Virus record (IMG/VR): IMGVR_UViG_3300046642_000231
Coordinates: 1 to 58,563 of that record
Direction: 5' to 3' (one strand)
From: a virus
Length of the DNA: 58,563 nucleotides
The position numbers were made by a program, and so were the translations under genes. Below, one piece after another: positions 1 through 58,563 of this stretch. Positions within the stretch are counted from its first letter, which is position 1. Each line of letters opens with the position of its first letter. The notes under the pieces are model-generated. The model was not told the DNA's origin, did not search any database, and was given only the letters and a program-made list of their open reading frames with translations.

Positions 1-437
1 TCGTCCCCACGCCTGTAGAGTGGGGAAGTAATCCCACAGCATAGAGAACCCAGCTTGCTGTAACAGATCGCAGATGACTCTGTACCTCACACCCGATTCA
101 TCTACAAAGGTATGCCACTGGATACACAATCTATTTACTCGGTCGAGCAGGTTGTTATCCAGCATGTACTCTAGCAATGGATACTCATAGCCCTCTATGT
201 TCATCATCATTAAGTCGATGATAGTACTAAAGAAGTACGTATCCATTACCGTTTTAGCATCCATCATTTGCCCAAGACCTTGCTCACGAACACCTACGTG
301 CAGAAAGCTGCACGCATCGGTATTGAACTCCCCCATTGGTAACCATCCATCAGCAGTACCAATAGCAAAGGGGTGCAAATACATATTGGGGCGCTGTCCC
401 CCATCAACTAATTTGCGTAGTTCGTCAAATGCCCAAA
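1..437. repeat. Terminal repeat, left copy (end overlap with 7 mismatches)
   Basis: Bases 1-437 match 58127-58563 without gaps, with seven differences at left positions 103, 112, 160, 211, 264, 298 and 310. All seven are transitions. Six fall in third codon positions of the overlapping methyltransferase gene and are silent; only position 264 changes a residue (Met to Val). This means the molecule is circular or circularly permuted and the two ends were taken from slightly different members of a population. A true packaged terminal repeat is possible, but its copies would normally be kept identical. Confidence 0.9.
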
Positions 438-612
438 TCTGAGGCTCGTAGCAATGCACTTGGCAGTTGTACTTGTCGTAGATAGCCTGAGACCATCTAC
501 CTTTATAGGAGCCCACTTCTACTACTACTGATTTCTCAGTAAGAGGCCAGTTGAACGATGCTTCGTCTGCACGGCTAATCCAGCTATCTTCGATATGCGC
601 ACTTACGCTCAT
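1..612 (-). CDS. FkbM-family SAM-dependent methyltransferase (cut at the left edge)
   Basis: Starts with ATG at 612, overlapping the stop of the upstream glycosyltransferase (ATGA), and reads through base 1; only the last residue and the stop are missing here and they are present at 58121-58126. The joined protein is about 205 residues. It shows the SAM-binding pattern VEVGSYKG near residue 35, a second acidic strand YEP, and the FkbM hallmark NIEGYE near residue 133. FkbM proteins methylate hydroxyls, often on sugars. Lying between glycosyltransferases in a translationally coupled string, it probably methylates the glycan they build. Family call is firm; substrate is inferred. Confidence 0.85.
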   Translation of the reverse strand, partial: MSVSAHIEDSWISRADEASFNWPLTEKSVVVEVGSYKGRWSQAIYDKYNCQVHCYEPQIWAFDELRKLVDGGQRPNMYLHPFAIGTADGWLPMGEFNTDACSFLHVGVREQGLGQMMDAKTVMDTYFFSTIIDLMMMNIEGYEYPLLEYMLDNNLLDRVNRLCIQWHTFVDESGVRYRVICDLLQQAGFSMLWDYFPTLQAWGR

Positions 613-1334
613 GCTACTACTCCATCAACCGCAGTCTCAATCACCAGCAAACTATTGGGTGCATGTATAGTACCTATGTGCCCGAAAAGATCACCTTCTG
701 GCTTGATGTAGGACATAGGCCACACCACACCAGTACGAGCAGCTTCCTTGTGTGCTACCGCAAACTCAGTAGGTCCAGCTTCCAGTACTTCAGGCCACGG
801 TCCTACTGCACGCTCCCAAGCTACGGTCTCTAGTCGAGGATGGCCAGCCCATACATGAGGCTCGTAACTGTTAGGCCACATGAGTATCCAGGTAGCACCT
901 TCTGCATGTAGAAATCTCCCGTGCAGTGCTTGGGTAAAGCCCAAGTAACCCATGCGTATGCAACCGAACTGGCCTAGCACAGGTACGTACTTATCCAGGT
1001 CCAGTGGCCGTATAAGCTCCCAATCATCCTCTAATGGAAGTACCACATCAGCACAGTTATGCACGACCTGTGTAGCTGAGTTATAATTAGCGCCGTAACC
1101 ACGATGATTGCTATTAGTACTGGTAACTTGCTCAATACCCATACCTCTAGCAATTTCCATAAGCTCTGCTACGTAACCACCGGGAGAACCGTCATCAGCA
1201 ATGTGCACACTGAGTGGACCTGAGTACTGAATACCTTCCAAGGCACTACGTAGGGTACGCTCTGCATACTCAAACCTATCATAGGTCAGGAGCATCACAC
1301 AAACCCGCTGGTCAAACACGTTATTACCTGTCAT
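609..1334 (-). CDS. Family 2-like glycosyltransferase (GT-A fold)
   Basis: This 241-residue protein begins like a GT2 enzyme: a hydrophobic strand, TYDRFEYAERTL, then the nucleotide-binding element IADDGSPGG near residue 46, and the metal-binding acidic motif LEDDWE near residue 100. Its start overlaps the stop of the dehydratase gene upstream (ATGA), and its own stop overlaps the start of the FkbM gene. It is short for a GT2 enzyme and has no membrane segment, so it is probably cytosolic. Likely role: transfer of an activated sugar, perhaps one made by the neighbouring dehydratase, onto a virion or host acceptor. Donor and acceptor cannot be told. Confidence 0.8.
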   Translation of the reverse strand: MTGNNVFDQRVCVMLLTYDRFEYAERTLRSALEGIQYSGPLSVHIADDGSPGGYVAELMEIARGMGIEQVTSTNSNHRGYGANYNSATQVVHNCADVVLPLEDDWELIRPLDLDKYVPVLGQFGCIRMGYLGFTQALHGRFLHAEGATWILMWPNSYEPHVWAGHPRLETVAWERAVGPWPEVLEAGPTEFAVAHKEAARTGVVWPMSYIKPEGDLFGHIGTIHAPNSLLVIETAVDGVVA

Positions 1335-2299
1335 ACGCTCTCAGCATCCTCCGCTGCTTCCAGTAAATCCTCTATAGTTAACCATTCATACGGGGCACTA
1401 CTCTTGTACTCAAAGGTATGGTTACTGGGTGGGTAACCTACTGGTTGTAGAAAGTAGTACAGCTTCGAGCCACAATCACTAGCTCGTACTGATTCCTGCT
1501 CGTGCACCAACGTCTCGTGCATCTTCTCACCAGGACGCACCCCAGTAACCTTTACCAGTGAATCCTTACGGCCATCTGTGCCAGCAATGGCAGCAGCAAG
1601 CTCACCCATCTTCATAGCACGAGCCTTGGGTATTACCCCACAACCACTCTCACAGCCTAAAGCCTCTAAAATGCAATCAACTGCTTCGTCAATCGTCATC
1701 CAGAAGCGAGTCATGAAAGGATCAGTAACCGTGATGTAGCCCTGATCTCGTAACTGCTGCTTGAACACAGGAATCACTGAGCCAGTACTACCAATCACAT
1801 TACCGTAGCGGGTGAACGTGTATCGTGTGTTTGCTCCCTTAACATCTGTCCACCACCTAGCAGCCTCAGACACCGTGCGTTCACCTAGAGCCTTAGTCAT
1901 ACCATACACGTTGACTGGCTGGCAGGCTTTATCAGTACTAATGAACACTACTTTCTCTACCATTTGATAAGCAGCAGACATGCAGACATTCTGTGTGCCA
2001 AGTACATTTACCCGTATACACTCAGCCACATTGAACTCAGCATCCGGTACGTACTTGATGGCAGCCGTGTGGATGACGATGTTCTTATCTAGCATTGCAC
2101 GGTTAAGAGCATGGTAGTCACACACGTCACCTAGCACGTACTTTACATCAGGGTACCGCTTACGACACTCATCTTGCTTAGTCTCGTCCCGTGAGAGAAC
2201 TGTGATTTGTGCTGGCCAGTTCTCCTTCTTAGCCCGCCTTAAAATACCTCGTCCCAAAAATCCGGTACCGCCTGGCAGAAGAATATTGCCACTCAACAT
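1331..2299 (-). CDS. NDP-sugar 4,6-dehydratase/epimerase, PseB/CapD/FlaA1-like (extended SDR)
   Basis: A 322-residue extended short-chain dehydrogenase. It has the NAD(P)-binding loop GGTGFLG (residues 10-16), the AAIKYVPDAE segment (79-88), STDKA (121-125), and the catalytic YGMTK pair Tyr132/Lys136. The combination STDKACQPVN then YGMTK is typical of UDP-GlcNAc inverting 4,6-dehydratases (PseB, FlaA1, CapD), which make a 4-keto-6-deoxy sugar. A clear ribosome site (GGAGAGG) sits six bases before ATG at 2299. It heads the glycosylation string (dehydratase, GT, FkbM, three-domain GT). The family is secure; the exact sugar product is inferred. Confidence 0.88.
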   Translation of the reverse strand: MLSGNILLPGGTGFLGRGILRRAKKENWPAQITVLSRDETKQDECRKRYPDVKYVLGDVCDYHALNRAMLDKNIVIHTAAIKYVPDAEFNVAECIRVNVLGTQNVCMSAAYQMVEKVVFISTDKACQPVNVYGMTKALGERTVSEAARWWTDVKGANTRYTFTRYGNVIGSTGSVIPVFKQQLRDQGYITVTDPFMTRFWMTIDEAVDCILEALGCESGCGVIPKARAMKMGELAAAIAGTDGRKDSLVKVTGVRPGEKMHETLVHEQESVRASDCGSKLYYFLQPVGYPPSNHTFEYKSSAPYEWLTIEDLLEAAEDAESV

Positions 2300-2320: not shown

Positions 2321-4207
2321 TTAGATTCCAGCACCCATACCAATACGAGTAAACTGAGTAGCACGCAACCTTATATTACTAGGTGGGGTTGGTCCAGGTC
2401 CAAAGTCCAGGCAAGGATAGCGGCACTGGAAATAACCTGTACGAATAGCAACACGCTCAGCATCAGTAAGACAACGATTAAAAGAAGTGGCCCCCACCAT
2501 CTCTGCTACTCCCTCGCTGCCGTTCTCATGGGCCTCGCGGAAGTAAGTAGCAATAGTAGGGTCAGCATAGAAACTTGGCATAGCAACAGTCTGTTCACCT
2601 AGCCCGTTATACTGAGCATGAAGTGTACTACCATCCCACCACACTTCTACTAATACCCAATCACCAATAGTATATGGGGAAGAAATACTTACAAATCCAC
2701 CTATAGAATCTGTAGCAAAACCAATAAAAATAATAGGAACAGCGGGAGTCTCAGTGGCAGTACGGCCCTCAAATGTAATGCCATTATTTCCCAGGTCATC
2801 CCAGGCAAACCCAAAGTTACCTGGAAACTCAGGGCTCACATCACTTGCAATCCTCGCAAGCCAGAACATCGTAAACCCAGTACCAGAGAGTAAACTTATT
2901 GAAGCATCGCCAGAATCATAGAGTCTGCGTGTAGTAGTAGCCATCTCATTAATAAGTGTAGCTGGATCTCCAGTACCAGTAAACTTCACTCCAGGTTGAC
3001 TACAAACATCTGATGCTACCCAAGTAGCAGGTGCCCTAACACCACCAGTAGTTGGAACCAAGTCACCATTATTGCCAATAGTTATTGGTCCAGCTTCAGA
3101 CCAGTTAGGTGTAACTGGGTCGCCGTCGGACAACCCTATTATTGAAGTGCCCTCGACCCACATGGTAAGGCCAGAATAAGCTGCTGGAGTAGCCCCACAC
3201 TCAAAATAAGGGGATATTGCTATCATTTCAGCTAATGTTGGGGTTGGGAAAGTATAAACTAATGACCAAGTACCTGTTGTTAGCTCCTGATGATACAAGT
3301 AACTACTATAAGTACTCTCAAATGTATCGGGGTCTTCAGTAAATTCATAAGTAATAACCCATAAATCAGTACCCATAGGGCTCAAGGCAAGGTCAATAAA
3401 TACTTGTCCACCACCATCAAATCCACCCGTTGATGGCAAGGTAAAGAACTCAAAACTATTGATCTCAGTAAATGTCTTGTCGAATACATGTGTAGTATAT
3501 ACGTAATCACCAGTAGTAATATCTACACTAAGATGTACAGTCTTATCTAAACTACCACAAAGCTCCCCGGAACTATCAGTTACAGAAAGATCAACTGTAT
3601 CCAAATGAGAGCCATCTGAACCTTTTAATATCTCTGCCCCAATATAATTTGCCCCCGCTGGATCAACAATCCCAGGTAGAAATATTCGTTCCTCACCACT
3701 TCCCCCTACTGGAGCAACAGTAACTTTTCCTGTTGCTGAAAGGGTAGTATGAAAAATGGATGTTGATGCCCATACGTCTGAACCATCAGATGTTAAAACC
3801 CTGGCAACATCAGTAGATGGATCTCCAACACCTTGACGAGAGCGTACCAAGAACAAATCACCTTCCCGTGAAGGGGCAAGGTTCCCATTATTAATCTCAT
3901 CTAAGTAGACATCATTAATATACCCTCCCCATGATCCATCTGCTTCAAACTTTGCTAGTCTATAATGTGTATGAAATCCCCCACTATTCAAATCATAGGT
4001 AACGTAAATATATAACCTTCCATCACTACCAACTGCTGCCCCATGTGTACTATAGGGGTTAAAATTGTCGTCCACAGTCTCTGGTATAACCAGTGTCTCA
4101 ATAAATGTACCTGAAGAATCAAAATGCCATATCTTCGGTACTTGCCTACCAGCCGCAGCTACAGCAGCATCATCCCCAATAAAAATGTCCCCACCATGAA
4201 ATGCCAT
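2321..4207 (-). CDS. Appendage/fibre protein with propeller-like N-terminus and LamG-like C-terminus
   Basis: A 628-residue protein without transmembrane segments. The first about 330 residues look like repeated beta blades (strands with recurring DG and GD turns, such as GSDGRLYIY and GSDGSHLDT). Residues about 345-600 have the alternating pattern of a LamG/concanavalin jelly roll, with VLVEVWWDGSTLHAQYNG close to the end of that fold. Its start overlaps the stop of the 181-residue gene (TAATG). It lies between the capsid gene and the sugar enzymes in the late operon, so it is probably an external carbohydrate-binding appendage or fibre. Domain calls are by eye. Confidence 0.55.
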   Translation of the reverse strand: MAFHGGDIFIGDDAAVAAAGRQVPKIWHFDSSGTFIETLVIPETVDDNFNPYSTHGAAVGSDGRLYIYVTYDLNSGGFHTHYRLAKFEADGSWGGYINDVYLDEINNGNLAPSREGDLFLVRSRQGVGDPSTDVARVLTSDGSDVWASTSIFHTTLSATGKVTVAPVGGSGEERIFLPGIVDPAGANYIGAEILKGSDGSHLDTVDLSVTDSSGELCGSLDKTVHLSVDITTGDYVYTTHVFDKTFTEINSFEFFTLPSTGGFDGGGQVFIDLALSPMGTDLWVITYEFTEDPDTFESTYSSYLYHQELTTGTWSLVYTFPTPTLAEMIAISPYFECGATPAAYSGLTMWVEGTSIIGLSDGDPVTPNWSEAGPITIGNNGDLVPTTGGVRAPATWVASDVCSQPGVKFTGTGDPATLINEMATTTRRLYDSGDASISLLSGTGFTMFWLARIASDVSPEFPGNFGFAWDDLGNNGITFEGRTATETPAVPIIFIGFATDSIGGFVSISSPYTIGDWVLVEVWWDGSTLHAQYNGLGEQTVAMPSFYADPTIATYFREAHENGSEGVAEMVGATSFNRCLTDAERVAIRTGYFQCRYPCLDFGPGPTPPSNIRLRATQFTRIGMGAGI

Positions 4208-4752: not shown

Positions 4753-4795
4753 CAACCCGCCCTAAAACTTAACCTAACCCTAATAACCTAACGGC

Positions 4796-4889: not shown

Positions 4890-6377
4890 TCAGTGGTTCC
4901 AGTCGCTATACAGGGATGGGCCTGGACGGGCAGTACTAACACCACCAGCCACGTAGTATGGCTCATCACTGAACGGCTCACGGGTGTGCTGGAGCGAGCA
5001 GTACTGGACGTTCTGGATACGACCGGCTAGGTGTGGAGTAAGCAGCACGAGCCTTGGCTCGATCTGTGCAGTCACCACCACGCAGCTATTCACAGGTGGC
5101 TTTGCGTGCCAGAACCACTTACCACCATCAGTCCAGAAGAACTGACTAACTCGTGCATCCGCAGCTTCCTGAATGGCCACCGAGTAGTCGTAGTACTCCC
5201 AGTACAGCACAGGGAGTCCACCACGCACCGTGAGAGGAAGCACGTAGATGTCTGACGAGAAGCAGCCATTACGCACTCGGTTGTTAGTGGTGTTAGTGTA
5301 CTCGGTGATGCCATCATCAATCACCACTGGGTAGCGAATGCCATCCAGCAGCAGGTAGTTGTTGTTCCGCATGTCATCACGCATGGCAATCTGATCGCCA
5401 GCATCAAGGACATACTGGTTGACACCATTATTGGTGATGGTCTGGCACATGTTCGTCATGTACGAGCACGGCCACACCTTCGTCAACTCATAGAACAGTT
5501 CTTGCCGCATGGCAACCACCCACTGCACATCACCCATGCTATTGCGTGAAGCGTTGTGCCGAAGGTAACGCATGAGGTAGGACATCACGTTGACAATGCC
5601 ACCACCAGCATCCGTAGTCACCGTGTCAACGAAGTTGTAGTTGTAATTCTTGATGTCACTGTTAAGCGAGGGACAAGCCGTATCAGTCATCGCATCATAC
5701 TTACTCGTGCCAATCAAAATGTTCAACCCAGGAAATTCTTTATAACCACCACCAGCATTGTTGTTACTTGGGTTACCATTCCACAACTGCCTGGTGAGCA
5801 AGTTCTGGAAGCTAACTCCTAGCTCCAACATACGAGTGAACATCTCCCCCTGGAACCCATTACGTAGCGTCATAGGCACCGAGGGGTTAATCATCGAACC
5901 ACCCGCACGGTTGTACAGTGGATCATTCACCAACCTAAGATCAGTGAACTCACCACGGTTAATCAACCGGCCGGCTTCGGTGATAGAGTACTCACGAGTC
6001 TGACGACCGTACCGCCCGAATTGGGCGGTTTGGAAGCAGGTAATCAGTGCACCAGCCGTCTTGAAGTCATCGCAGATACCGCTGGGGTTCGAGCCACTAT
6101 CATCACCAAACCCGGTAATGTACCCAAACAATGGGTTCATATACCGAGTGGCCATCGTGGGGATCATGTCCCCAATGCTATTGGGCTGAATACGAGTAGA
6201 GAAGAAGTCCCTCTCGATACCAGCCACACCAAACAGTGAGTTAGGCCCGTGCAGGTATGGTCCCTGTGGCGTACCAGTAGGGAAGCCGGTAGTACGCTGG
6301 CCTCCATACAGTGTTGCCTGACGGGAACCACCCTGCAACTGGGCCATCTCCGCAGCCAGTTGTTCAAGTAGTGTCAC
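4890..6377 (-). CDS. Major capsid protein (putative, HK97-fold type)
   Basis: A 495-residue protein immediately after the protease/scaffold gene, the usual place for the major capsid protein. It has no signal or membrane segment. It is rich in Asn, Gly and aromatic residues and shows a long middle region with YLMRYLRHNASRNSMGD and VVAMRQELFYELTKVWP, resembling the spine-helix and P-domain region of large HK97-fold capsids. GTG at 6377 overlaps the protease stop (GTGA), with GGAGG seven bases before. Its codons look more uniform than those of its neighbours, as expected for a highly expressed gene. I call it by position, size and style; no hallmark motif is decisive. Confidence 0.75.
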   Translation of the reverse strand: MTLLEQLAAEMAQLQGGSRQATLYGGQRTTGFPTGTPQGPYLHGPNSLFGVAGIERDFFSTRIQPNSIGDMIPTMATRYMNPLFGYITGFGDDSGSNPSGICDDFKTAGALITCFQTAQFGRYGRQTREYSITEAGRLINRGEFTDLRLVNDPLYNRAGGSMINPSVPMTLRNGFQGEMFTRMLELGVSFQNLLTRQLWNGNPSNNNAGGGYKEFPGLNILIGTSKYDAMTDTACPSLNSDIKNYNYNFVDTVTTDAGGGIVNVMSYLMRYLRHNASRNSMGDVQWVVAMRQELFYELTKVWPCSYMTNMCQTITNNGVNQYVLDAGDQIAMRDDMRNNNYLLLDGIRYPVVIDDGITEYTNTTNNRVRNGCFSSDIYVLPLTVRGGLPVLYWEYYDYSVAIQEAADARVSQFFWTDGGKWFWHAKPPVNSCVVVTAQIEPRLVLLTPHLAGRIQNVQYCSLQHTREPFSDEPYYVAGGVSTARPGPSLYSDWNH

Positions 6378-10094: not shown

Positions 10095-10721
10095 TCAAAA
10101 CCCCACACATTCAAACTGAGTAGATCGTGCCCCAAACCTAGCAGCACTGCTACCATCATCACCATACCACACTCGGGCGCACTCACCTATAGGCTCCCCC
10201 ACACCAGGTGTTGCGGTAGGGGTTGCAGTCGGTGCTGATGTAGATGTAACTGGCACACCAGTAGCCGTAGGCGTGGTGGCCTGCTGGCCAAAGTCACACA
10301 CCCACAGTGGTGTGCTCCCTGCCATGCCAGAGGCACACCCTAAGTCAGTAAACAACCCCAACAGCAGTATGAACCTATTACCACTACCATCTACTGCCCA
10401 GGCATCAATCACCCCTTGCACGGTAGGATGGTCAGTGTCAATCAACTCCGAGGCATTACCAGTACTAGGATACCCAGCCGCTTGCTGCCGGTCATATGGC
10501 ACAGGCTCATTTACACATCTAGGTAGGTAGCAACCACTACTGAGCATGTAGTTGATTTTTGATTGTGCTGCTGCTTCGAGCCTGGTATCAACATGCAGCG
10601 CCGTTGCCCCGTTTGCCACACGGTACTGATTCACAGCGGTTTCTAGACTAGATACCTGTGCACTCACAGCAGTAGGAATACTCAGCATTATCAGTAGTAA
10701 TACGATTGGAAAGTACTTCAT
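10095..10721 (-). CDS. Secreted CAP (SCP/PR-1) domain protein with Thr/Pro linker
   Basis: A 208-residue protein. Residues 1-22 are a clear signal peptide (Lys, hydrophobic core, AVSAQ cleavage site). Residues about 24-150 follow the CAP pattern: LETAVNQYRVANGATALHVD, LEAAAQSKINYML, VIDAWAVDGSGNRFILLLG, TDLGCASG and a closing WVCDFGQ. Then comes a Thr/Pro/Ala linker (TATPTATPGV) and a short Cys-containing tail. AGGAGG precedes ATG at 10721, squeezed behind the terminase stop. CAP proteins are extracellular and bind lipids or act in host interaction; one inside a packaging-gene cluster is unusual. The linker resembles those of Chloroflexota surface proteins. It is probably a cargo gene. Confidence 0.75.
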   Translation of the reverse strand: MKYFPIVLLLIMLSIPTAVSAQVSSLETAVNQYRVANGATALHVDTRLEAAAQSKINYMLSSGCYLPRCVNEPVPYDRQQAAGYPSTGNASELIDTDHPTVQGVIDAWAVDGSGNRFILLLGLFTDLGCASGMAGSTPLWVCDFGQQATTPTATGVPVTSTSAPTATPTATPGVGEPIGECARVWYGDDGSSAARFGARSTQFECVGF

Positions 10722-34879: not shown

Positions 34880-35094
34880 CTACTAACCAGCAACCGTCAT
34901 CTACACCAAACAAAATAGTGGTAAATGAGATATTAGATGCGTGGATAGAACACTGTACTGAAATAATAGGTGTCAATGTAGAGCACTGGCCGGACCAATT
35001 ACGAGACGAAATTATTGCTGGGATAGTTAGCTACGACGGACTGCTATTTACCGCTGGGTACAAAAAGGGGCTTGCTGCGAGGAACAACACATGA
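34876..35094 (+). CDS. Hypothetical 72-residue protein (GTG start)
   Basis: GTG at 34876 overlaps the previous stop. Helical, acidic (VVNEILDAWIEHCTEIIGVN; LRDEIIAGIVSYDGLLFTAGY), ending in a basic turn. No family. Its last codons overlap the polymerase start. Confidence 0.5.
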   Translation: MTTNQQPSSTPNKIVVNEILDAWIEHCTEIIGVNVEHWPDQLRDEIIAGIVSYDGLLFTAGYKKGLAARNNT

Positions 35095-37496
35095 CAGCTA
35101 CTATAAGTACCGGCCTACCCTGCTGCATAGGTGGCATCCAGGGTGAGGGCAACCTGACCGATGGAGTAATGATTGTAGGTCACATGCCCGGTGCAGACGA
35201 GATGCGTACTCGCAAGCCATTTACTGGACCTAATGGCTCACTCATGGATGCACTGCTAGAGTACACTGGGTGGTCCCGTGAGCGAGTGTACTGTACCAAC
35301 ATTCTGTGTCAGTACTTTAAGCCAGCACTACCAGGACGTACCAAGACTGGTAAGGCTAAGAAGTTACCGAGCACACTACCAGACCACCCAGAGTGTGTAG
35401 CCAGGTTCGAGCGTGAGGTGCAAGCCCTCAAGCCTAAGCTCATCATCACTCTCGGTGCTGAAGCCTGCGAGTACATGACGGGAATGAAGGTAAGCCGTGC
35501 ACGGGGAGTCCCCGTCTTCGATACTAAACGCAAGTGCTACGTGATGCCCACCATGCAACCCATCGGTGCAGTACAGGGTGATGTAAGCATCCTGTACCAC
35601 GTCATCCGAGACTTCTCGAAAATACAGCACATCCTACGATGGCCACAAGATGGTAGTATAAAAGATGTACACTACGAGGTGATTGATGATCCCACCGCAG
35701 CACGAGCCTACCTATCTTCCCTTCCTCGTAACACCTACGTGTCACTGGACATCGAAACTGACAATCGTTTTGTCAATATTATTGATATTTTCAGTGATAA
35801 GTTGCTATGCGTTGGTGTTGGTTATATTGACCCTACTACACAATCCGAAGTGGTGTGGGTACTAACTCCCACTGCACTGCAAGGCTTGTGTGCTGACGAC
35901 TGGCCCCAGGACGTATGGTGGACCTACCAGAATGGACCCTTCGACAAGAATGGCCTACGACACTACCTCAACACCAACTTACCCATCGTACATGACACCA
36001 TGATGATGTCGTATGCACTAGATGAAAGGGGTGGGCGTGATGAAGCAACGGATTCATTTGCTGGCATTCATGGCCTTGGTCCCCAGGCAGATGAGTGGTG
36101 TGGAGCAGAGTTCTATAAGGAACGAGAGAAAGGCGAGCGTGGTACTCATCCTGCCCAGCTTGATCCCAGCGTGCTGCACCGCTACAATGCACACGATGTT
36201 GCTTACACAGTCAGACTACCAATTATCTATGTGCCTAAACTGATTGACGAGGATGTCTACGACTTATACGAGAACCGACTCATGCCACTCAGCCGTGCCT
36301 TCGCTGACATCAACTATGAAGGCCAGCCCGTAGATACTCGTTACTTGCAAGACCTGATTCTCAAGTGGGGGCCACGTTACCAGCAGGGTGAGGAGCACTT
36401 ACAAGAGTTAGCTCAGGAGTATGGCTTCCCTGGTACCATCAACCTTAACTCACCTAAGCAAAAGAGCCAGTTCATCTACACACTGCTGGGCCTAGAGCAC
36501 GAGCAAGCACCTAGCACTGCTCGCACGGTGATTGAAGACTTAGACCACCCGTGGATTGATGCCTACCTGGATCACGCCAGGCTAGAGCACATCATCAATC
36601 ATTACTTAGTACCAGCGGTACGACAGATTAAGATTGATGGTAGGATGCATACCAGTACTCTTATCCACGGCACCACCAGTGGACGACTGGCCTACATAGA
36701 TCCACCCTTGCAGACCTTGCCGCAAGCCTACACGGTAGGTGAATTTGCTGAGCTACGGAGAATCTTTATACCTGACTCACCAGAGCACGTCATTGCAGAG
36801 TTCGACTACAACCAGATCGAGATGTGGATGGCAATGGGGTTATCCCACGATGATAACATGCGCCATGCACTCGAAGCTGGTGACATCCACGGGGCTACTA
36901 CTAGGAACGTGCTACACGTAGACCCACTCACCACAACCACTGAAGAGTGGAAGATTGCCCGTCAGTTAGGTAAGAAGGTAAACTTCTCCGTCATCTACTG
37001 GATCAGTGCCAAAGAGTTATCGAACCCCAAGAAGGGTATTGGTGGTACCGTAAGGCAAGCCCAGGAGCACATCAATAACTTCTTCGACGAGTACCATGAC
37101 TACTACGATTACACCCTTCAATGTGTAGAAGAGGCCAAGCGTGAAGGCTACCTACGCACTCCTTACGGACGTAAGCGTAGGTTCCACTTGATGCTAGACA
37201 GTCGCCAAGACCGCCAAGCAGTGAACTACAAGGGGCAATCAATCGCCAACGATTACACCCTCAGCGCACTGCTTCACCTGCACAACGACCCTTACTTTCG
37301 TACCGTCCTGGGTGGGAGGATACTATGGGGAGTGCATGACTCACTCGTCACCAACCTACGACGAGACCGCCTAGAAGAGAGCATTGACTACGTGTGCAGT
37401 GTGATGGAGTCACAGCACATAGTTGACTTACCAACAGTCAAGGTCGAGCCCAAAGTTGGCCCTAACCTGTACGATGTGAAGGAGTGGAAGCGATGA
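35091..37496 (+). CDS. Uracil-DNA-glycosylase-like domain fused to family A DNA polymerase
   Basis: An 801-residue fusion. Residues 1-180 resemble family 4 uracil-DNA glycosylase: GHMPGADE (30-37), FTGPNGSLMDALL, YCTNILCQYF, LKPKLIITLGAEA, with Cys at 11/12, 68, 73 and 102 that may hold an iron-sulfur cluster; the usual catalytic HP pair reads Gln156-Pro157. Residues 215-400 are a 3-prime-5-prime exonuclease (SLDIETD, Asp220/Glu222; YNAHDVAYT). The polymerase has motif A FDYNQIE (Asp572), O-helix Arg624, Lys628, Phe632, Tyr636, and motif C VHDS (Asp750; Ser where Glu is usual). It is the replicative polymerase. Confidence 0.88.
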   Translation: MTATISTGLPCCIGGIQGEGNLTDGVMIVGHMPGADEMRTRKPFTGPNGSLMDALLEYTGWSRERVYCTNILCQYFKPALPGRTKTGKAKKLPSTLPDHPECVARFEREVQALKPKLIITLGAEACEYMTGMKVSRARGVPVFDTKRKCYVMPTMQPIGAVQGDVSILYHVIRDFSKIQHILRWPQDGSIKDVHYEVIDDPTAARAYLSSLPRNTYVSLDIETDNRFVNIIDIFSDKLLCVGVGYIDPTTQSEVVWVLTPTALQGLCADDWPQDVWWTYQNGPFDKNGLRHYLNTNLPIVHDTMMMSYALDERGGRDEATDSFAGIHGLGPQADEWCGAEFYKEREKGERGTHPAQLDPSVLHRYNAHDVAYTVRLPIIYVPKLIDEDVYDLYENRLMPLSRAFADINYEGQPVDTRYLQDLILKWGPRYQQGEEHLQELAQEYGFPGTINLNSPKQKSQFIYTLLGLEHEQAPSTARTVIEDLDHPWIDAYLDHARLEHIINHYLVPAVRQIKIDGRMHTSTLIHGTTSGRLAYIDPPLQTLPQAYTVGEFAELRRIFIPDSPEHVIAEFDYNQIEMWMAMGLSHDDNMRHALEAGDIHGATTRNVLHVDPLTTTTEEWKIARQLGKKVNFSVIYWISAKELSNPKKGIGGTVRQAQEHINNFFDEYHDYYDYTLQCVEEAKREGYLRTPYGRKRRFHLMLDSRQDRQAVNYKGQSIANDYTLSALLHLHNDPYFRTVLGGRILWGVHDSLVTNLRRDRLEESIDYVCSVMESQHIVDLPTVKVEPKVGPNLYDVKEWKR

Positions 37497-52103: not shown

Positions 52104-52127
52104 CACATTCTCCACAACCTAAAAGTT

Positions 52128-52178: not shown

Positions 52179-53666
52179 CTACGCCGCCTTCACCACGAAG
52201 CCATCGGTAGCATTGTCAGCGAGTCCAGCACCAAACACCACGTTGGGGTCGCACGAGGCGAGTGATCCAACGTAGTCATTAGCGGGGATACTGGCACCCG
52301 ACTCAGGCATCACGTACCAGGAGTGCCCACCATCAATAGTACGCAGCACACGTCCTGCTGGTGCAGCAGTGTTGTGCGCCATGTACCCGACGCTAGGAGT
52401 GGCGAACACTATATCACGCACCACGCCTGCACCACTACCAGGGAACGCAATCTCGTGCCAGTTCACACCCTGGTCGATGGTGTAGAACAGCTTACCACCA
52501 TTCGTACCCACCAACCAACGGTCCTTGGTCTGCATCCACACTGCGTTGAGATCCACACCCACTGCTGGGCCAGTCACCGCAGCCCACGTACTACCACCGT
52601 TGGGGGTGTACAGCACTGCATTGGACTTACCAACCGCCACGATGTGGAGTTGGTCAATGCCGTGGATGTCAGTTAGATCCTGCACCGTAGCACTACCAGA
52701 CGACTGTGGGGTAACCGATGCAGTAGGATCAGCAGTGAAATAGATGTACCCACCCAGTCCAGTCATCCAGGTATGGCTAGGATCGAATGAGTAAATCTTG
52801 GTAGGTCCGTGTCCTGCCACGAAACCAGTAGACATGTTAGTCCAGGTCTCTACTGCATTGAGGATGTCTCGGATGTTAGCGTAATGCACGCTCTCCGACT
52901 CACTACTCGCCACGACGATGTTGGTACCCACCAAGGCCAGGGCGTCAGGGTCATTACTAGCAGTAAGCGTAGTAATGTTACGGTACCCAAACGACCCACC
53001 ACCATCAGAAGAGTAGATCAAGTCAGCACCCAGGCCAGGACTACCACCAGCACGCAGGGTGACACCCATGACGATCTGACAACCGTCCGAGCTAATACCG
53101 CACGTACCGCACTGAATACGGTCAGGTACGATAATACCCATCACTTGCTGGGTGACAGTAGAGGCAGCAAGCTCAGCAAACGAGAGGGGCACTACCTCGT
53201 AGTAATCCTCACCAGTCCACGGCACCGTCTCGTCTACCACTGCACGCTGGTCAGGTGCAAGTGCACCAAGGTCAGCAGTACCGTACTGAGTAATACGGGC
53301 AGCTTCGAGGATTGCTACCTTCTCCCACCCACGGTTGAAGTCGAGAGGATCTTCGCACTGGCCAAAGTGAATCTGCAAGTCATGGTCGCAACCAAGGCGA
53401 GCCAGTTTCAGCAGGCGACTAAGATCAGTGGTGTACCGTGCCATCACTGGCAACTGTGGGTCACCAGGTGCACCGATAATCTTACCATTACGCACGAACT
53501 CATCGTACCGTGTGGCACTAGGAGTACGAATAACGGTAACGTTACCTTGCGCCCACGTCACCGCCCCAGGCTTCCACAAGTTGTAGTACTCTGGTGAGTT
53601 CTGTGGTGCGCTACGGTTAGGGATTAGCCACATGCGGCTAAACCCTGTTCTCATCAGGTCAGCCAT
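52179..53666 (-). CDS. Major tail protein with Asp-box propeller C-terminus
   Basis: A 495-residue protein from ATG at 53666 (AAGGAG before it). Residues 1-200 are the likely tail tube part (TGFSRMWLIPN at the start, VPLSFAELAASTVTQQVMGI). Residues about 205-495 hold BNR/Asp-box repeats: SSDGGGSF (about 219), TPNGGSTW (about 354), TIDQGVNW (about 396), TIDGGHSW (about 443), a Ycf48/sialidase-like beta-propeller. The propeller would stand out along the tail surface. It is followed by a strong hairpin, fitting a highly expressed gene. Confidence 0.72.
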   Translation of the reverse strand: MADLMRTGFSRMWLIPNRSAPQNSPEYYNLWKPGAVTWAQGNVTVIRTPSATRYDEFVRNGKIIGAPGDPQLPVMARYTTDLSRLLKLARLGCDHDLQIHFGQCEDPLDFNRGWEKVAILEAARITQYGTADLGALAPDQRAVVDETVPWTGEDYYEVVPLSFAELAASTVTQQVMGIIVPDRIQCGTCGISSDGCQIVMGVTLRAGGSPGLGADLIYSSDGGGSFGYRNITTLTASNDPDALALVGTNIVVASSESESVHYANIRDILNAVETWTNMSTGFVAGHGPTKIYSFDPSHTWMTGLGGYIYFTADPTASVTPQSSGSATVQDLTDIHGIDQLHIVAVGKSNAVLYTPNGGSTWAAVTGPAVGVDLNAVWMQTKDRWLVGTNGGKLFYTIDQGVNWHEIAFPGSGAGVVRDIVFATPSVGYMAHNTAAPAGRVLRTIDGGHSWYVMPESGASIPANDYVGSLASCDPNVVFGAGLADNATDGFVVKAA

Positions 53667-53997
53667 TAGGATGCTCCTTCTGATAGTACAAGGTAGCGAC
53701 CGCTTGGGCATCTACCTTCAATGCACTTTGAATGGCTTGGGTTACAGTACCCAGCCCACGTCGCTTGACATCTTCATACGTGAGAATCCCTAACCCGAAC
53801 AACTCATTGTGCACCCGTACACTCATCTCGGAACTCAGTCCTAAGCCATCCAATGGTGGTGGCCCCATACGTACACCCATCCTGGCATGAGATTCGGGTG
53901 CTGTGGCTGGCAGCAACACCTTGTACTTACGCCCATCAGGGTCGATGTAAGTTGTAACACGGTTAGGGTTCGGCCCAGTGCTACGAGCATCAGCCAT
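53659..53997 (-). CDS. Hypothetical neck/tail-completion candidate
   Basis: A 112-residue protein. N-terminal part with YIDPDGRKYKVLLP, C-terminal part with LFGLGILTYEDVKRRG, GTVTQAIQSALKVDAQ, resembling a helix-hairpin-helix-like bundle. Overlaps both neighbours (TAATG and an 8-base overlap). Located between a connector-like gene and the major tail gene. Confidence 0.5.
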   Translation of the reverse strand: MADARSTGPNPNRVTTYIDPDGRKYKVLLPATAPESHARMGVRMGPPPLDGLGLSSEMSVRVHNELFGLGILTYEDVKRRGLGTVTQAIQSALKVDAQAVATLYYQKEHPNG

Positions 53998-55172
53998 TAG
54001 ATCAACACCGGCTGGCCAATAGTACGCTGTTGTACCAACCTGTAGGCATTCAGTGCCCCTCTAGTTGAACCAAAGGGGTTATCAATGTTACCAATGCGTT
54101 GAGGTCGTTGACTAAATGAGGATTCACGAGTAATCTCATTTAAGTCTAGGCCCCAGTAATTAGTGGCATCCATGATTACGTTGCAATTGCAGATAGGACG
54201 CTTGAGCATAGACAGAGCTAAGTAAGCTACTGCTCTCTCTATATCGGGGTCCATCACTGTGTAGTCATTAGGGTTATAAAGGCTACCACCCCTATACCAT
54301 AACCGTGCAGCATCAGGCCGTGTGCAAGGGTTAAACACTGCCTGAGTAAACAACCCTGTAGTAACATTGTAAGTAGCTGGCTGAGTTAGCACTACACCCT
54401 GGCGCTGATCTACCACTGTAAGGCACCCGCCTTGAGTAGCATGTACACAAGGGTTACAACCACATAAGCAACCCTTCGACCATAGGAAGGCCATTGGATC
54501 AGCAGGGTCCAGGTACACTCTACCTACATCTACCGTGCCCAAGAACTGAGCATCATCAGTGCCCTCTACCGTAAAAGCATCTCGATAGGATTCCAGCGTC
54601 TCTTCTAGTACACACCGTTCACGGTTAAGGGTGATGGTAGCTCCACTACCAACCAGCGTCACACCACGGGGCTTTATAATCCACTCATCATCACCCATGT
54701 GTCCTGGGTAGTACACCACTACTTCGTCCGCATACTGAGCAGTGGTACTTACTGTTACCGTGCCGTACCGCTTGTACCCGATGTCATCTGCTGACCCCCA
54801 GGTAATGACAGCACCAGCTTCTATCACTGCTTTAGCACGCCTACCACCAGATAGTACATAACCCCAGTCAGTACGGAAGCGTGGCTGCCATAACCTGGGA
54901 TCTAGTGGATGGCGTTCATCCTCTTCGTAAGTAGGCATCAGTCGGTAGAACAAGCCATCTTCAATGGTACGCTCTGCATTAGCAATGGCCTGGGATATTT
55001 CTTCTCGTGACATACGATCTGCCTTCTGCCACGAGTACTGGAAGATAGGACTACCACAAGTAACGAACTGTCCGTTTGATAGATTCACTCCGTTGAAGTG
55101 GAGTGGGTTCATACCAATGATCTGTGCGAATCGGTCTAGCCCTAACTTAGTGACGGTCTTGGTGGTAGCCAC
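53997..55172 (-). CDS. Head-tail connector-like structural protein (unsure)
   Basis: A 391-residue protein from GTG at 55172 (GGAG eight bases before). Residues 50-75 are helical (SREEISQAIANAERTIEDG), then beta-type with GAVITWGS and a Cys-rich loop CLCGCNPCVHATQGGC around residue 230, and a later helical YLALSMLKRP. I cannot assign a family; the place between sugar/membrane genes and the tail tube suggests an adaptor or neck protein. The Cys cluster may bind metal. Confidence 0.5.
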   Translation of the reverse strand: MATTKTVTKLGLDRFAQIIGMNPLHFNGVNLSNGQFVTCGSPIFQYSWQKADRMSREEISQAIANAERTIEDGLFYRLMPTYEEDERHPLDPRLWQPRFRTDWGYVLSGGRRAKAVIEAGAVITWGSADDIGYKRYGTVTVSTTAQYADEVVVYYPGHMGDDEWIIKPRGVTLVGSGATITLNRERCVLEETLESYRDAFTVEGTDDAQFLGTVDVGRVYLDPADPMAFLWSKGCLCGCNPCVHATQGGCLTVVDQRQGVVLTQPATYNVTTGLFTQAVFNPCTRPDAARLWYRGGSLYNPNDYTVMDPDIERAVAYLALSMLKRPICNCNVIMDATNYWGLDLNEITRESSFSQRPQRIGNIDNPFGSTRGALNAYRLVQQRTIGQPVLI

Positions 55173-55455
55173 TTATTCCATCTCCGGCAATGGCGAGTGC
55201 ACTAACTGCAAGTAACCAATTCAGCCACCTTGGCCCCCAATGTAGCAGCGGAGCTACCCATAACGATGTACACCAGAGGCAAACCAACGGATTCCAGGCG
55301 GGCCAGGCCAACAGCCCTCCATGAACAGTATACTCCAAGCCGCTAGCCTTTCTCAACCGCTTAAAAACCTCGAAGGGGCCAGCCTCAGCGGTAAGCAGGG
55401 AGCTTAACCGCCAACAGGCTAATCCTTCCAGCAACAAGCGTTCATACCCACTCAT
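55147..55455 (-). CDS. DUF1360-like membrane protein
   Basis: A 102-residue protein. LACWRLSSLLTAEAGPFEVFKRLR, then NPLVCLWCTSLWVAPLL and WLNWLLAVSALAIAG match small DUF1360-type membrane proteins found in phages and spore formers, with a CxxC in the membrane part. Function unknown. ATG overlaps the glycosyltransferase stop (ATGA). Confidence 0.65.
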   Translation of the reverse strand: MSGYERLLLEGLACWRLSSLLTAEAGPFEVFKRLRKASGLEYTVHGGLLAWPAWNPLVCLWCTSLWVAPLLHWGPRWLNWLLAVSALAIAGDGISGYHQDRH

Positions 55456-58124
55456 ACGGCTGCTACCACTTCCTCCACTGGGTGGGGAGCCTCCGTAGAA
55501 CCCACAAACAACCTAAAGACCTTAGTAAGTGCCATCAGGTCTGGTAGATCAGCCTTGTACACATACTGAATAGGCTCATCAGCACTAAATCGGTACTGTT
55601 GTCCCGTAGTTTGCCCCATGTATACCCGTGCACTCTGCTCAGGTAGGATGAACTGTACTTGCACCAGGTCACTAGTATCACCAGCATTAACTACCCGGCT
55701 GTTACTAGCAAAGGGATTTTGCTGGCGCTCAGCCATTGCTAGTTGCTGGTCATTAGCTCGCTGTGCACATGCTCCACAGGCCATGAAATCACTCTCCTTC
55801 CACTTAGCACGCATTGCTGCTAGTGCCGACTCTTTATTGGCGTAAATCTTCTCACGTACTGTACCTGATTGCACACGGTACTGTAACAGTGGCACGGGTA
55901 CTCGCACCCCACACACCCCGTGTGCACACAAGTTGATGATTAAGTCGTAATCCTCCCAGGCTGCTAACTCAGTGTCAAAGCCGCCAATCTCACGCACTAA
56001 CTTGGTAGGATACACACACGACACTGACATAAACATGGTCTGCATCAAGTTCTCTGCTGACCACTCGCTACACTCGTGCACTTCACCAGTCTCGTGCACT
56101 ACCCAATCAGAGTACACCAGCATATCTGGTGCAGCCAAGGGCATCATTAGCTCTAGTGCATCAGGATGCAGAATATCGTCAGCATCGAGCAATATGAAGT
56201 AAGGAGTCTTTACTTCAGCAATGCCAACGTTACGAGTGTTAGCAGGGCCAGTAGCACCGACCCCGGTGTCGTAGGTTCTGACGAAAGCAGGTAGGTTAGG
56301 TAAAGAGCCCCCACTATCGTTAACCACCAGCACGTCGTACTTCTGGTAAGTCTGTGCAATAACCGAATCAACCGCATCCACCACTATGTCCTGGTGACCT
56401 GGACCCACGGGTATTACTACGGTAACAATCGACGGGTCATATGACTGCACATTCGGATACTCCACGTCATCCCGTGCAGCCACAAAGGGAGTAAGTTCAT
56501 ACTTAGTTGCCCACGGATACCAGGCGTTCCAGTTTGCTTGCTCATTAACTCGAGACATCGAATCTGCACGCTGGCGATAGACCAGAGTAACTGCGTCAGT
56601 GACCTTAGCAGGTATTGCACCAATTGACACCGCCCTTGCCCAAAAGTCAGCATCCTCAGCAGTCTTGTACCTACGCCGGTACCCACCACTACGTTCCCAT
56701 ACCCAGCGGCGGTACATGCTCGTGCTAGGTATCTGATTCTGTTGCTGTAACTGGCGCATGAAGCTAAAGTTATCAAATGGCCAAGTACTGATGCCATCAC
56801 CTGATACCCCAGTATCAGCACTACCGTCAGGATTGATGAACTTGACCCGACCGTAGGCAATATCCAGTGCACGGTGTTTGTCAAGCTCACCAGTTAGAAC
56901 GGCAAGTGTGCCAGGAGCCAAATAATTATCAGCATCAAGACAAAGTATGTAATCACCACTGCTAGCGTTAATGCCAGCATTAAGAGCACCCGCGAGATAA
57001 AGATTCTTGTCATTATGAATGAACCTCACACCTCGACTGGCATACTCTTGTTCGAGGGACGTATCCCACGTAGGGCTGGCATCGTCTACTACAATGATCT
57101 CGGTTGAGTACCCACGGTCTTCTGCCCCCTGTTGGAGCACACTATCCAAGCACTGCGTGAGGAAGTGTTCGAGCTTGTAGCAAGGAATAATAACCGATAC
57201 CTTGGGTCGTGGTGCGTTCCACTTCTCAAGCACTGACTCATACAGTGGTACGTAACGCTTGATGGCTTGGCCCCAGGTAAACCGCTTGAGCACGTCTTGT
57301 CGGGCAGTCTTGCCTAGCTCAGCACCATGCTTCAAGCAGTACTCAATACCCTCAGCTAAGCCATCTACGTCACCAGGCTTGCATAGCCACCCAGTTTCCT
57401 TGTGACGTACAATCTCGTGCTGTCCACCCCAGTCCCAGCCTACTACTGGTACTCCCGCTGCTAGAGCCTCTACCGTACCGATCCCGAACGTCTCCCGAGT
57501 GGTACACAAGTATACCCCCGCACGGTGTACCAACTGCTTACCCGATTCGTAAGGTAACACACCTGTAACAGTGACGTTACCTGGCTCCGACCTGCCCTCA
57601 GTGCCTAGCAAGTACGTTGACACGAACCGCTGGCTGGGCATCATTGCTGCTAGCTTACCTACAGGAGTAGGATCACAGATAGGGTCTACTCGTGTCTTGT
57701 TCCAGAGTACGTAAGTATCGTGCTGTGCACGCGCCAGCGGCTTCCACTCATCTGTACTAATGCCATGGTACAGCACGGTGCAATCAGCCCACATTCCACG
57801 ACGCACAGCGTTGGCTACCCACTCCGAAGGTGCTGTAATTGCCTGGGCCTTGTGGAGCACCCCTACTACATCAACATTCAATCTTTTTGCCCACAATGGC
57901 CAATTATACTCGTCCCAGTACAAGCCGTGCATATGAGCTACTACTGGGCCATCGGTAGGCATCCAGGCACCAGCATGTACAGCAACCAAGTCAGCAGCTT
58001 CTACTGTGTTGGCAATCTCTATACCATACTCAGGCAAGTACTTACGCTGGGCTTCCACTACCCGCCTTATACCGCCATCGCCGTTGTCTACGCCTCGAAA
58101 GTTGGGGCTAATATAAACCTTCAT
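55452..58124 (-). CDS. Three-domain glycosyltransferase (GT4 plus two GT2)
   Basis: An 890-residue fusion from ATG at 58124, which overlaps the FkbM stop (ATGA). Residues 1-300: GT4-type, with AGVPVVGWDWGGQHEIV near 226 and TGWLCKPGD. Residues about 310-560: GT2 with SVIIPCYKLEHFLTQCLDS, VVDDAS and the metal site CLDADNY near 398. Residues about 565-770: second GT2 with VVIPVGPGHQDIV, VVNDSGG and LLDADD near 651. Last 100 residues are beta-type and may attach it. Such a fusion could make a three-sugar unit in one protein. Cytosolic. Confidence 0.85.
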   Translation of the reverse strand: MKVYISPNFRGVDNGDGGIRRVVEAQRKYLPEYGIEIANTVEAADLVAVHAGAWMPTDGPVVAHMHGLYWDEYNWPLWAKRLNVDVVGVLHKAQAITAPSEWVANAVRRGMWADCTVLYHGISTDEWKPLARAQHDTYVLWNKTRVDPICDPTPVGKLAAMMPSQRFVSTYLLGTEGRSEPGNVTVTGVLPYESGKQLVHRAGVYLCTTRETFGIGTVEALAAGVPVVGWDWGGQHEIVRHKETGWLCKPGDVDGLAEGIEYCLKHGAELGKTARQDVLKRFTWGQAIKRYVPLYESVLEKWNAPRPKVSVIIPCYKLEHFLTQCLDSVLQQGAEDRGYSTEIIVVDDASPTWDTSLEQEYASRGVRFIHNDKNLYLAGALNAGINASSGDYILCLDADNYLAPGTLAVLTGELDKHRALDIAYGRVKFINPDGSADTGVSGDGISTWPFDNFSFMRQLQQQNQIPSTSMYRRWVWERSGGYRRRYKTAEDADFWARAVSIGAIPAKVTDAVTLVYRQRADSMSRVNEQANWNAWYPWATKYELTPFVAARDDVEYPNVQSYDPSIVTVVIPVGPGHQDIVVDAVDSVIAQTYQKYDVLVVNDSGGSLPNLPAFVRTYDTGVGATGPANTRNVGIAEVKTPYFILLDADDILHPDALELMMPLAAPDMLVYSDWVVHETGEVHECSEWSAENLMQTMFMSVSCVYPTKLVREIGGFDTELAAWEDYDLIINLCAHGVCGVRVPVPLLQYRVQSGTVREKIYANKESALAAMRAKWKESDFMACGACAQRANDQQLAMAERQQNPFASNSRVVNAGDTSDLVQVQFILPEQSARVYMGQTTGQQYRFSADEPIQYVYKADLPDLMALTKVFRLFVGSTEAPHPVEEVVAAV

Positions 58125-58563
58125 ACTCGTCCCCACGCCTGTAGAGTGGGGAAGTAATCCCACAGCATAGAGAACCCAGCTTGCTGTAACAGATCGCAGA
58201 TGACTCTGTACCTCACACCCGATTCATCCACAAAGGTGTGCCACTGGATACACAATCTATTTACTCGGTCGAGCAGGTTGTTATCTAGCATGTACTCTAG
58301 CAATGGATACTCATAGCCCTCTATGTTCATCATCATCAAGTCGATGATAGTACTAAAGAAGTACGTATCCATTACCGTTTTAGCATCCACCATTTGCCCA
58401 AGACCTTGCTCACGAACACCTACATGCAGAAAGCTACACGCATCGGTATTGAACTCCCCCATTGGTAACCATCCATCAGCAGTACCAATAGCAAAGGGGT
58501 GCAAATACATATTGGGGCGCTGTCCCCCATCAACTAATTTGCGTAGTTCGTCAAATGCCCAAA
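58121..58563 (-). CDS. FkbM-family methyltransferase (5-prime part beyond the right edge)
   Basis: The second copy of the gene at 1-612: here the C-terminal 145 or so residues with the real stop TGA (58121-58123), which overlaps the start of the three-domain glycosyltransferase. It carries Val where the left copy has Met and is otherwise identical in protein sequence. Includes the FkbM motif NIEGYE. Confidence 0.88.
   Translation of the reverse strand, partial: WAFDELRKLVDGGQRPNMYLHPFAIGTADGWLPMGEFNTDACSFLHVGVREQGLGQMVDAKTVMDTYFFSTIIDLMMMNIEGYEYPLLEYMLDNNLLDRVNRLCIQWHTFVDESGVRYRVICDLLQQAGFSMLWDYFPTLQAWGRV
58127..58563. repeat. Terminal repeat, right copy
   Basis: Same 437 bases as 1-437 with seven transitions. 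Joining the ends here gives one uninterrupted methyltransferase gene and a molecule of about 58.1 kb. Confidence 0.9.

Follow-up and report, generated by a model that had tools for sequence, protein, structure and literature searches.

A late phage gene encoding three glycosyltransferase domains in one chain, a candidate for virion oligosaccharide synthesis

The locus and its late neighbourhood

The window analysed here is a virus record of 58,563 nucleotides (IMG/VR IMGVR_UViG_3300046642_000231). Its minus strand encodes an 890-aa protein with three glycosyltransferase (GT) domains, running from an ATG at 58124 to a stop codon at 55454-55452. The contig ends overlap directly, bases 1-437 matching 58127-58563 at 98.4% identity with 7 mismatches. 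Because of this 437-bp terminal overlap the record is effectively circular: it closes to a map of about 58,126 bp, and the cut falls within an FkbM gene. A circular assembly with strain variation had been classed as linear, and the genes at its two ends are one gene. The FkbM gene seemed truncated because the contig opens within it; read across the junction, the full gene (1..612, minus strand) encodes an FkbM-family methyltransferase of 204 aa plus V (TIGR01444, 2e-11, above cut-off), and its C-terminal part is repeated in the terminal overlap at 58121-58561.

The FkbM ORF lies directly upstream of the three-GT ORF and shares a 4-bp ATGA overlap with it at 58121-58124. The translational coupling proposed in an earlier sequence-only reading is thus supported in the window but is not conserved, since FkbM was found in just 3/31 related records. 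We therefore rejected FkbM as a conserved partner and regard it as a local add-on outside the core.

Across the junction, the minus-strand order (gene starts in brackets) is TerL (12399), a CAP-domain protein (10721), predicted portal (9657), predicted protease (7954), predicted capsid (6377), a gene at 4755, a variable 628-aa protein (4207), a PseB/CapE-like dehydratase (2299), a small GT2-like protein (1334), FkbM (612) and the three-GT gene. This is followed by a phrog_781-like gene (55455), a 391-aa protein (55172), a 112-aa protein (53997), a Ycf48/BNR protein (53711), a gene at 52115 and the tape measure (51241). TerL and the tape measure are supported by profiles, while portal, protease and capsid were assigned by gene order and inspection only. 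The predicted major capsid protein (4890..6377, minus strand) has no Pfam match.

The same neighbours recur in relatives, in counts over distinct loci whose flanks were long enough. Upstream of the three-GT gene, 48/70 loci have the predicted capsid gene, a count limited by flanks of 6-10 kb. Directly downstream is a small late gene resembling phrog_781/DUF1360 (55147..55455, minus strand; phrog_781, 1e-4), present in 54/72 loci. The 391-aa late gene (53997..55172, minus strand), a putative head-tail connector judging by its position, follows in 69/72. Neither of two further HMMs was used: the one called GT241 had drifted to the GT2 domain of the family itself, and CAPE may have drifted onto other SDRs. 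The capsid and 391-aa counts confirm the earlier placement of the gene in a late operon, a position that fits any late function.

Two further late genes deserve mention. A Ycf48/BNR beta-propeller-like protein (52179-53711, minus strand), a candidate for the virion surface, is present in 63/72 relatives. Between the terminase and the predicted portal gene, 10095-10721 (minus strand) encodes a protein with a CAP/SCP-like domain and, at its N terminus, a hydrophobic stretch.

Three intact glycosyltransferase domains

Domain 1 (residues 1-305; 57210..58124, minus strand) is a GT4 of the GT-B fold and retaining type. It matched Pfam Glyco_transf_4 (PF13439) and Glycos_transf_1 (PF00534) at 2e-17. 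Its EX7E motif is E211/E219, not near residue 226 as first proposed, and phosphate-binding K143 and R145 follow the inter-domain strand. Foldseek matched the domain to whole GT-B GT4 enzymes of the BshA type and to 2JJM (TMt about 0.65 over about 375 columns), and the AlphaFold2 model contains both Rossmann domains. Across 82 distinct proteins, the window's own included, K143, R145 and E211 are present in all and E219 in 79, with Q in the others.

Two Glycos_transf_2 stretches (PF00535, 5e-44) make up the centre of the chain. Domain 2, the first GT2 (residues 306-560; 56445..57209, minus strand), has a GT-A fold of the inverting type and its best Pfam stretch at 310-473. It carries DD347-348, DAD397-399 and ED490-491; D397, D399, E490 and D491 were found in 82/82 proteins. 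WrtF and 6P61 are among its Foldseek matches. Domain 3, the second GT2 (residues 561-778; 55791..56444, minus strand), also adopts a GT-A fold in the AlphaFold2 model. Its motifs are D603, R631-N632, DADD647-650 and ED724-725, with R631, N632, D647, D649 and D650 kept in 82/82, E724 in 81/82 and D725 in 78/82. Both GT2 copies thus have a DXD metal site and an (E)D catalytic base. Catalytic residues that vary so little, if at all, among 82 distinct proteins are not there by chance.

The full-chain AlphaFold2 model, built from 26 relatives, had a pLDDT of 87.4 and a pTM of 0.84 and contained three complete GT folds. Together with Foldseek it gave the order GT4 (GT-B), GT2 (GT-A), GT2 (GT-A) and a small C-terminal domain. 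Structure prediction and domain profiles therefore agree with the proposed GT4 and two GT2s, each with its own motifs, and the catalytic acids are conserved in all three; the fourth, smaller domain at about residues 779-890 had been missed. In nine close pairs, all dN/dS values obtainable for the GT domains lay at 0.04-0.24, indicating purifying selection. It is excluded that two of the three domains are dead. By family, the GT4 would form one alpha (retaining) linkage and the GT2s beta (inverting) linkages. No strong hydrophobic segment was found in the protein.

A single chain in uncultivated phages

A two-sequence profile search of IMG/VR found 31 loci, and a profile from a 26-row alignment extended this to 104 IMG/VR relatives. 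Of the 104 matches, 80 were kept. The distinct single-ORF GT4-GT2-GT2 proteins analysed number 79, 77 of them with the C-terminal domain, at 30-55% identity. No isolate phage carries the protein, as no INPHARED record covers 80% of it; the predicted capsid protein and the 391-aa protein (the latter searched against 50,697 phage records) likewise had no INPHARED match. The three-GT gene thus has a fixed late position in a lineage of tailed phages known from uncultivated members. A TerL scan for relatives gave no matches. In one 143-kb record, IMGVR_UViG_3300031566_000001, two three-GT copies (L080 and L089) lie about 75 kb apart and are 83% identical, which could reflect a duplication or the joining of two related genomes in a concatemer.

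In GTDB genomes the first two-sequence profile found no match and the full profile found six, on MAG contigs. Three of the six (L034, L035 and L037) carry phage capsid, protease and downstream late genes, and a bacterial or prophage origin was rejected. L034 and L035 match identically in two MAGs from different phyla. L039 is a plain GT2, while the shortness of L036 and L038 allows no verdict.

The C-terminal domain (about residues 779-890; 55455..55790, minus strand) was delimited from alignments of relatives and the AlphaFold2 model. It starts with an MxCxxC motif, in which C783 is kept in 80/82 distinct proteins, and continues through a disordered linker (799-815), where AlphaFold2 confidence drops, into a small beta domain. 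A scan for this domain with 38 rows gave no matches. Relatives of one branch add a helix-hairpin-helix (HHH) tail after it. The only PDB profile matches were to this tail, which resembles NusA and the RNAP alpha CTD in the relatives' sequences. HHH motifs are often found in nucleic-acid-binding proteins.

These tails could be read as a sign that the enzyme glycosylates hypermodified bases in phage DNA, with the C-terminal/HHH part binding DNA, and multi-sugar DNA GTs are on record (Pyle 2024, as cited in PMC12619734). We consider this very improbable. The protein encoded in the window lacks the HHH tail, its gene occupies a late structural position, and no thymidylate-synthase-family base hydroxymethylase was found in 33 IMG/VR records, which may be incomplete, whereas the control search was positive in 9/14 genomes. 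Glycosylation of the hmC/hmU type, for which that enzyme would supply the acceptor, is disfavoured.

The single chain is broken in two loci, L028 and L029, where the GT4 is a separate gene split off at the GT4/GT2 junction. HNH-type genes lie exactly at this split (L028 10858-11565; L029 10923-11423). In L028, the GT4, the GT2-GT2 pair and the C-terminal domain are three neighbouring genes in unchanged order. That is the sole separate copy of the C-terminal domain, every other match being fused, and a stand-alone small protein was rejected as its ancestor. Given the single separate copy and the HNH genes at the split, fission fits better than recent fusion.

That all active domains persist when the GT4 is separated, apparently after HNH entry, is what would be expected if the three GTs acted on different acceptors or sites and were tethered just for supply or stoichiometry, with no sequential chain. 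The failure of the domain arrangement to superpose on two-domain polymerases points the same way. Against this, one chain has been kept in 79 distinct proteins despite their divergence, and the three GT domains evolve together, with distance correlations of 0.67-0.81. Separate acceptors are thus unlikely.

Sugar supply and the probable target

Between the predicted capsid and three-GT genes, the lineage carries dehydratases/epimerases, aminotransferases, methyltransferases, some sulfotransferases and small GTs. In the window, 1331..2299 (minus strand) encodes an inverting UDP-GlcNAc 4,6-dehydratase-like enzyme of the PseB/CapE/FnlA group (PF02719, 5e-77). It has the expected fold family, matching 2GN4 (1e-57) and 3VVB in the PDB, and keeps the DKxxxY-type motif as STDKA...Y (STDKACQPVNVYGMTK). 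It scored 1e-71 against PseB yet reached 241 bits against an NCBIfam equivalog cut-off of 407.75, and 199 against 730 for FnlA. Below both cut-offs, it can be assigned to the group and not to one substrate. The dehydratase product needs further steps and the window holds no complete pathway, so host enzymes or other cassette genes must contribute. The neighbouring small GT2-like protein (609..1334, minus strand; 241 aa) matched PF00535 at 1.3e-4, just below cut-off; among the first 31 loci, 9 have a homologue upstream of the three-GT gene.

A supply gene, either a PseB/CapE-type dehydratase or a PseC-like aminotransferase, was present in 43/50 records. A strong PF02719 dehydratase occurred in 25/50 and a DegT-type aminotransferase in 19/50, with both in 1/50 (9.5 expected) and neither in 7/50. 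The DegT proteins scored best to PseC or RfbH, under the equivalog cut-offs. Nearest GT relatives had the same supply gene in 41/41 cases, against a shuffle mean of 21 and maximum of 32; the choice of supply gene follows GT clade. Such linkage can come from shared ancestry alone. Because ancestry explains part of it, a substrate link is supported but not proven.

Taken together, a virion oligosaccharide is the best explanation for a soluble protein that combines one retaining site with two inverting ones and is encoded in a late operon with its own supply of unusual sugars. We consider it somewhat more likely than not that this soluble, cytosolic protein, a fixed late gene product, modifies a virion protein of the phage by building a short oligosaccharide on it. 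The neighbouring cassette would supply an unusual deoxy- or amino-sugar nucleotide, here through the PseB/CapE-type dehydratase. The 890-aa protein, with its three active sites, would then assemble three or more sugars on the virion protein, and the cassette would add finishing groups, here by FkbM O-methylation and the small GT. The assembly line first suggested from sequence has become likelier through co-conservation of the active sites and dedicated supply genes; its acceptor, order of addition, product, linkage types and the role of the C-terminal domain are what we infer. A possible acceptor is the large protein at 2321-4207 (minus strand). Large proteins in this slot after the predicted capsid gene, the 628-aa one here and those of L004 and L008, are unrelated in sequence from phage to phage.

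Viral enzymes with several GTs are already known, and so is glycosylation of phage virions. The 860-aa A111/114R protein of chlorovirus PBCV-1 is likewise a single viral polypeptide with three GTs, proposed to add three successive sugars of the five in the capsid glycan core without the host ER/Golgi, and A064R of the same virus combines two GTs and a methyltransferase (PMC7826918). By contrast, A111/114R belongs to a eukaryotic virus, has domains assigned as Gal-, Xyl- and FucT and has no described GT4-GT2-GT2-CxxC arrangement, a comparison made from the published description (PMC7826918). The Cluster O mycobacteriophage Corndog has GT and O-methyltransferase genes among its head genes, between portal and protease, for which capsid modification was proposed; its GTs are separate and single-domain with no three-GT fusion, and the available text of that report notes no NDP-sugar dehydratase or aminotransferase (PMC4351075). 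Glycans on mycobacteriophage capsids and tail tubes have also been described (Freeman 2023, as cited in PMC12619734). In BFVD, proteins from giant viruses and from uncultured Caudovirales, A0A6J5T3W3 and A0A0N9QZQ5 among them, also place several GTs on one chain, but none has the same whole-chain fold; with whole-chain TM-scores of only about 0.2-0.25 they are different architectures. What is new is a phage-wide single-chain GT4-GT2-GT2-CxxC enzyme, encoded at a fixed late position and served by alternative sugar supply modules; we found no description of one in literature that included few subscription journals. The protein can be called unusual, as first claimed, for isolates only, given its 104 uncultivated relatives and the published chlorovirus polypeptides.

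The best sequence match (first GT2) and the best fold match were to capsule polymerases with two GTs per chain, E. coli K4 chondroitin polymerase (2Z86/2Z87) and P. multocida heparosan synthase 2 (8VH7). The K4 enzyme, bifunctional, was the best Foldseek match by E-value (538 columns), and the first GT2 also had small GtrB-like matches. Such matches would suit an enzyme that produces or modifies a polysaccharide, either secreted or on the host surface, whether as a chondroitin-synthase-like polymerase or in superinfection exclusion resembling serotype conversion. The K4 match holds per domain only (rmsd 18.7, TMt 0.31). Over the tandem pair, rmsd was 15-19 A and TMt 0.31-0.36, which speaks against a bifunctional polymerase of the chondroitin/heparosan type; neither polymerase has an N-terminal GT4. 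A Gtr serotype-conversion system would have GtrA and a membrane GT in a temperate phage. Its marker genes disfavour it: in IMG/VR records, which may be incomplete, neither a GtrA flippase nor an initiating phosphoglycosyltransferase was found (0/29 each) and an integrase occurred in only 3/29. With no strong hydrophobic segment and a gene inside the virion operon, the host target once offered as an alternative is decidedly doubtful.

If the virion oligosaccharide reading is true, one conserved polypeptide gives a large lineage of uncultivated tailed phages, with no relatives among isolates, a self-contained line for virion glycosylation, the counterpart in prokaryotic viruses of the three-GT enzymes of chloroviruses. 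It would also offer a soluble multi-step GT scaffold, apparently with clade-dependent sugar supply. Two questions would become testable: whether phages can make defined oligosaccharides with no lipid carrier, and how the order of sugars is controlled when GTs are fused. The C-terminal domain may serve to dock the enzyme to its acceptor, which is a guess. A bolder version, which we think rather unlikely, has the CxxC/beta domain docking the enzyme onto the nascent head/neck and coupling glycan building to virion assembly, a head-tethered line with two interchangeable sugar-supply modules that would define the whole phage lineage.

Elsewhere in the window, 35091-37496 (plus strand) encodes an 801-aa fusion of a uracil-DNA-glycosylase-superfamily domain, a 3'-5' exonuclease and a family A DNA polymerase.
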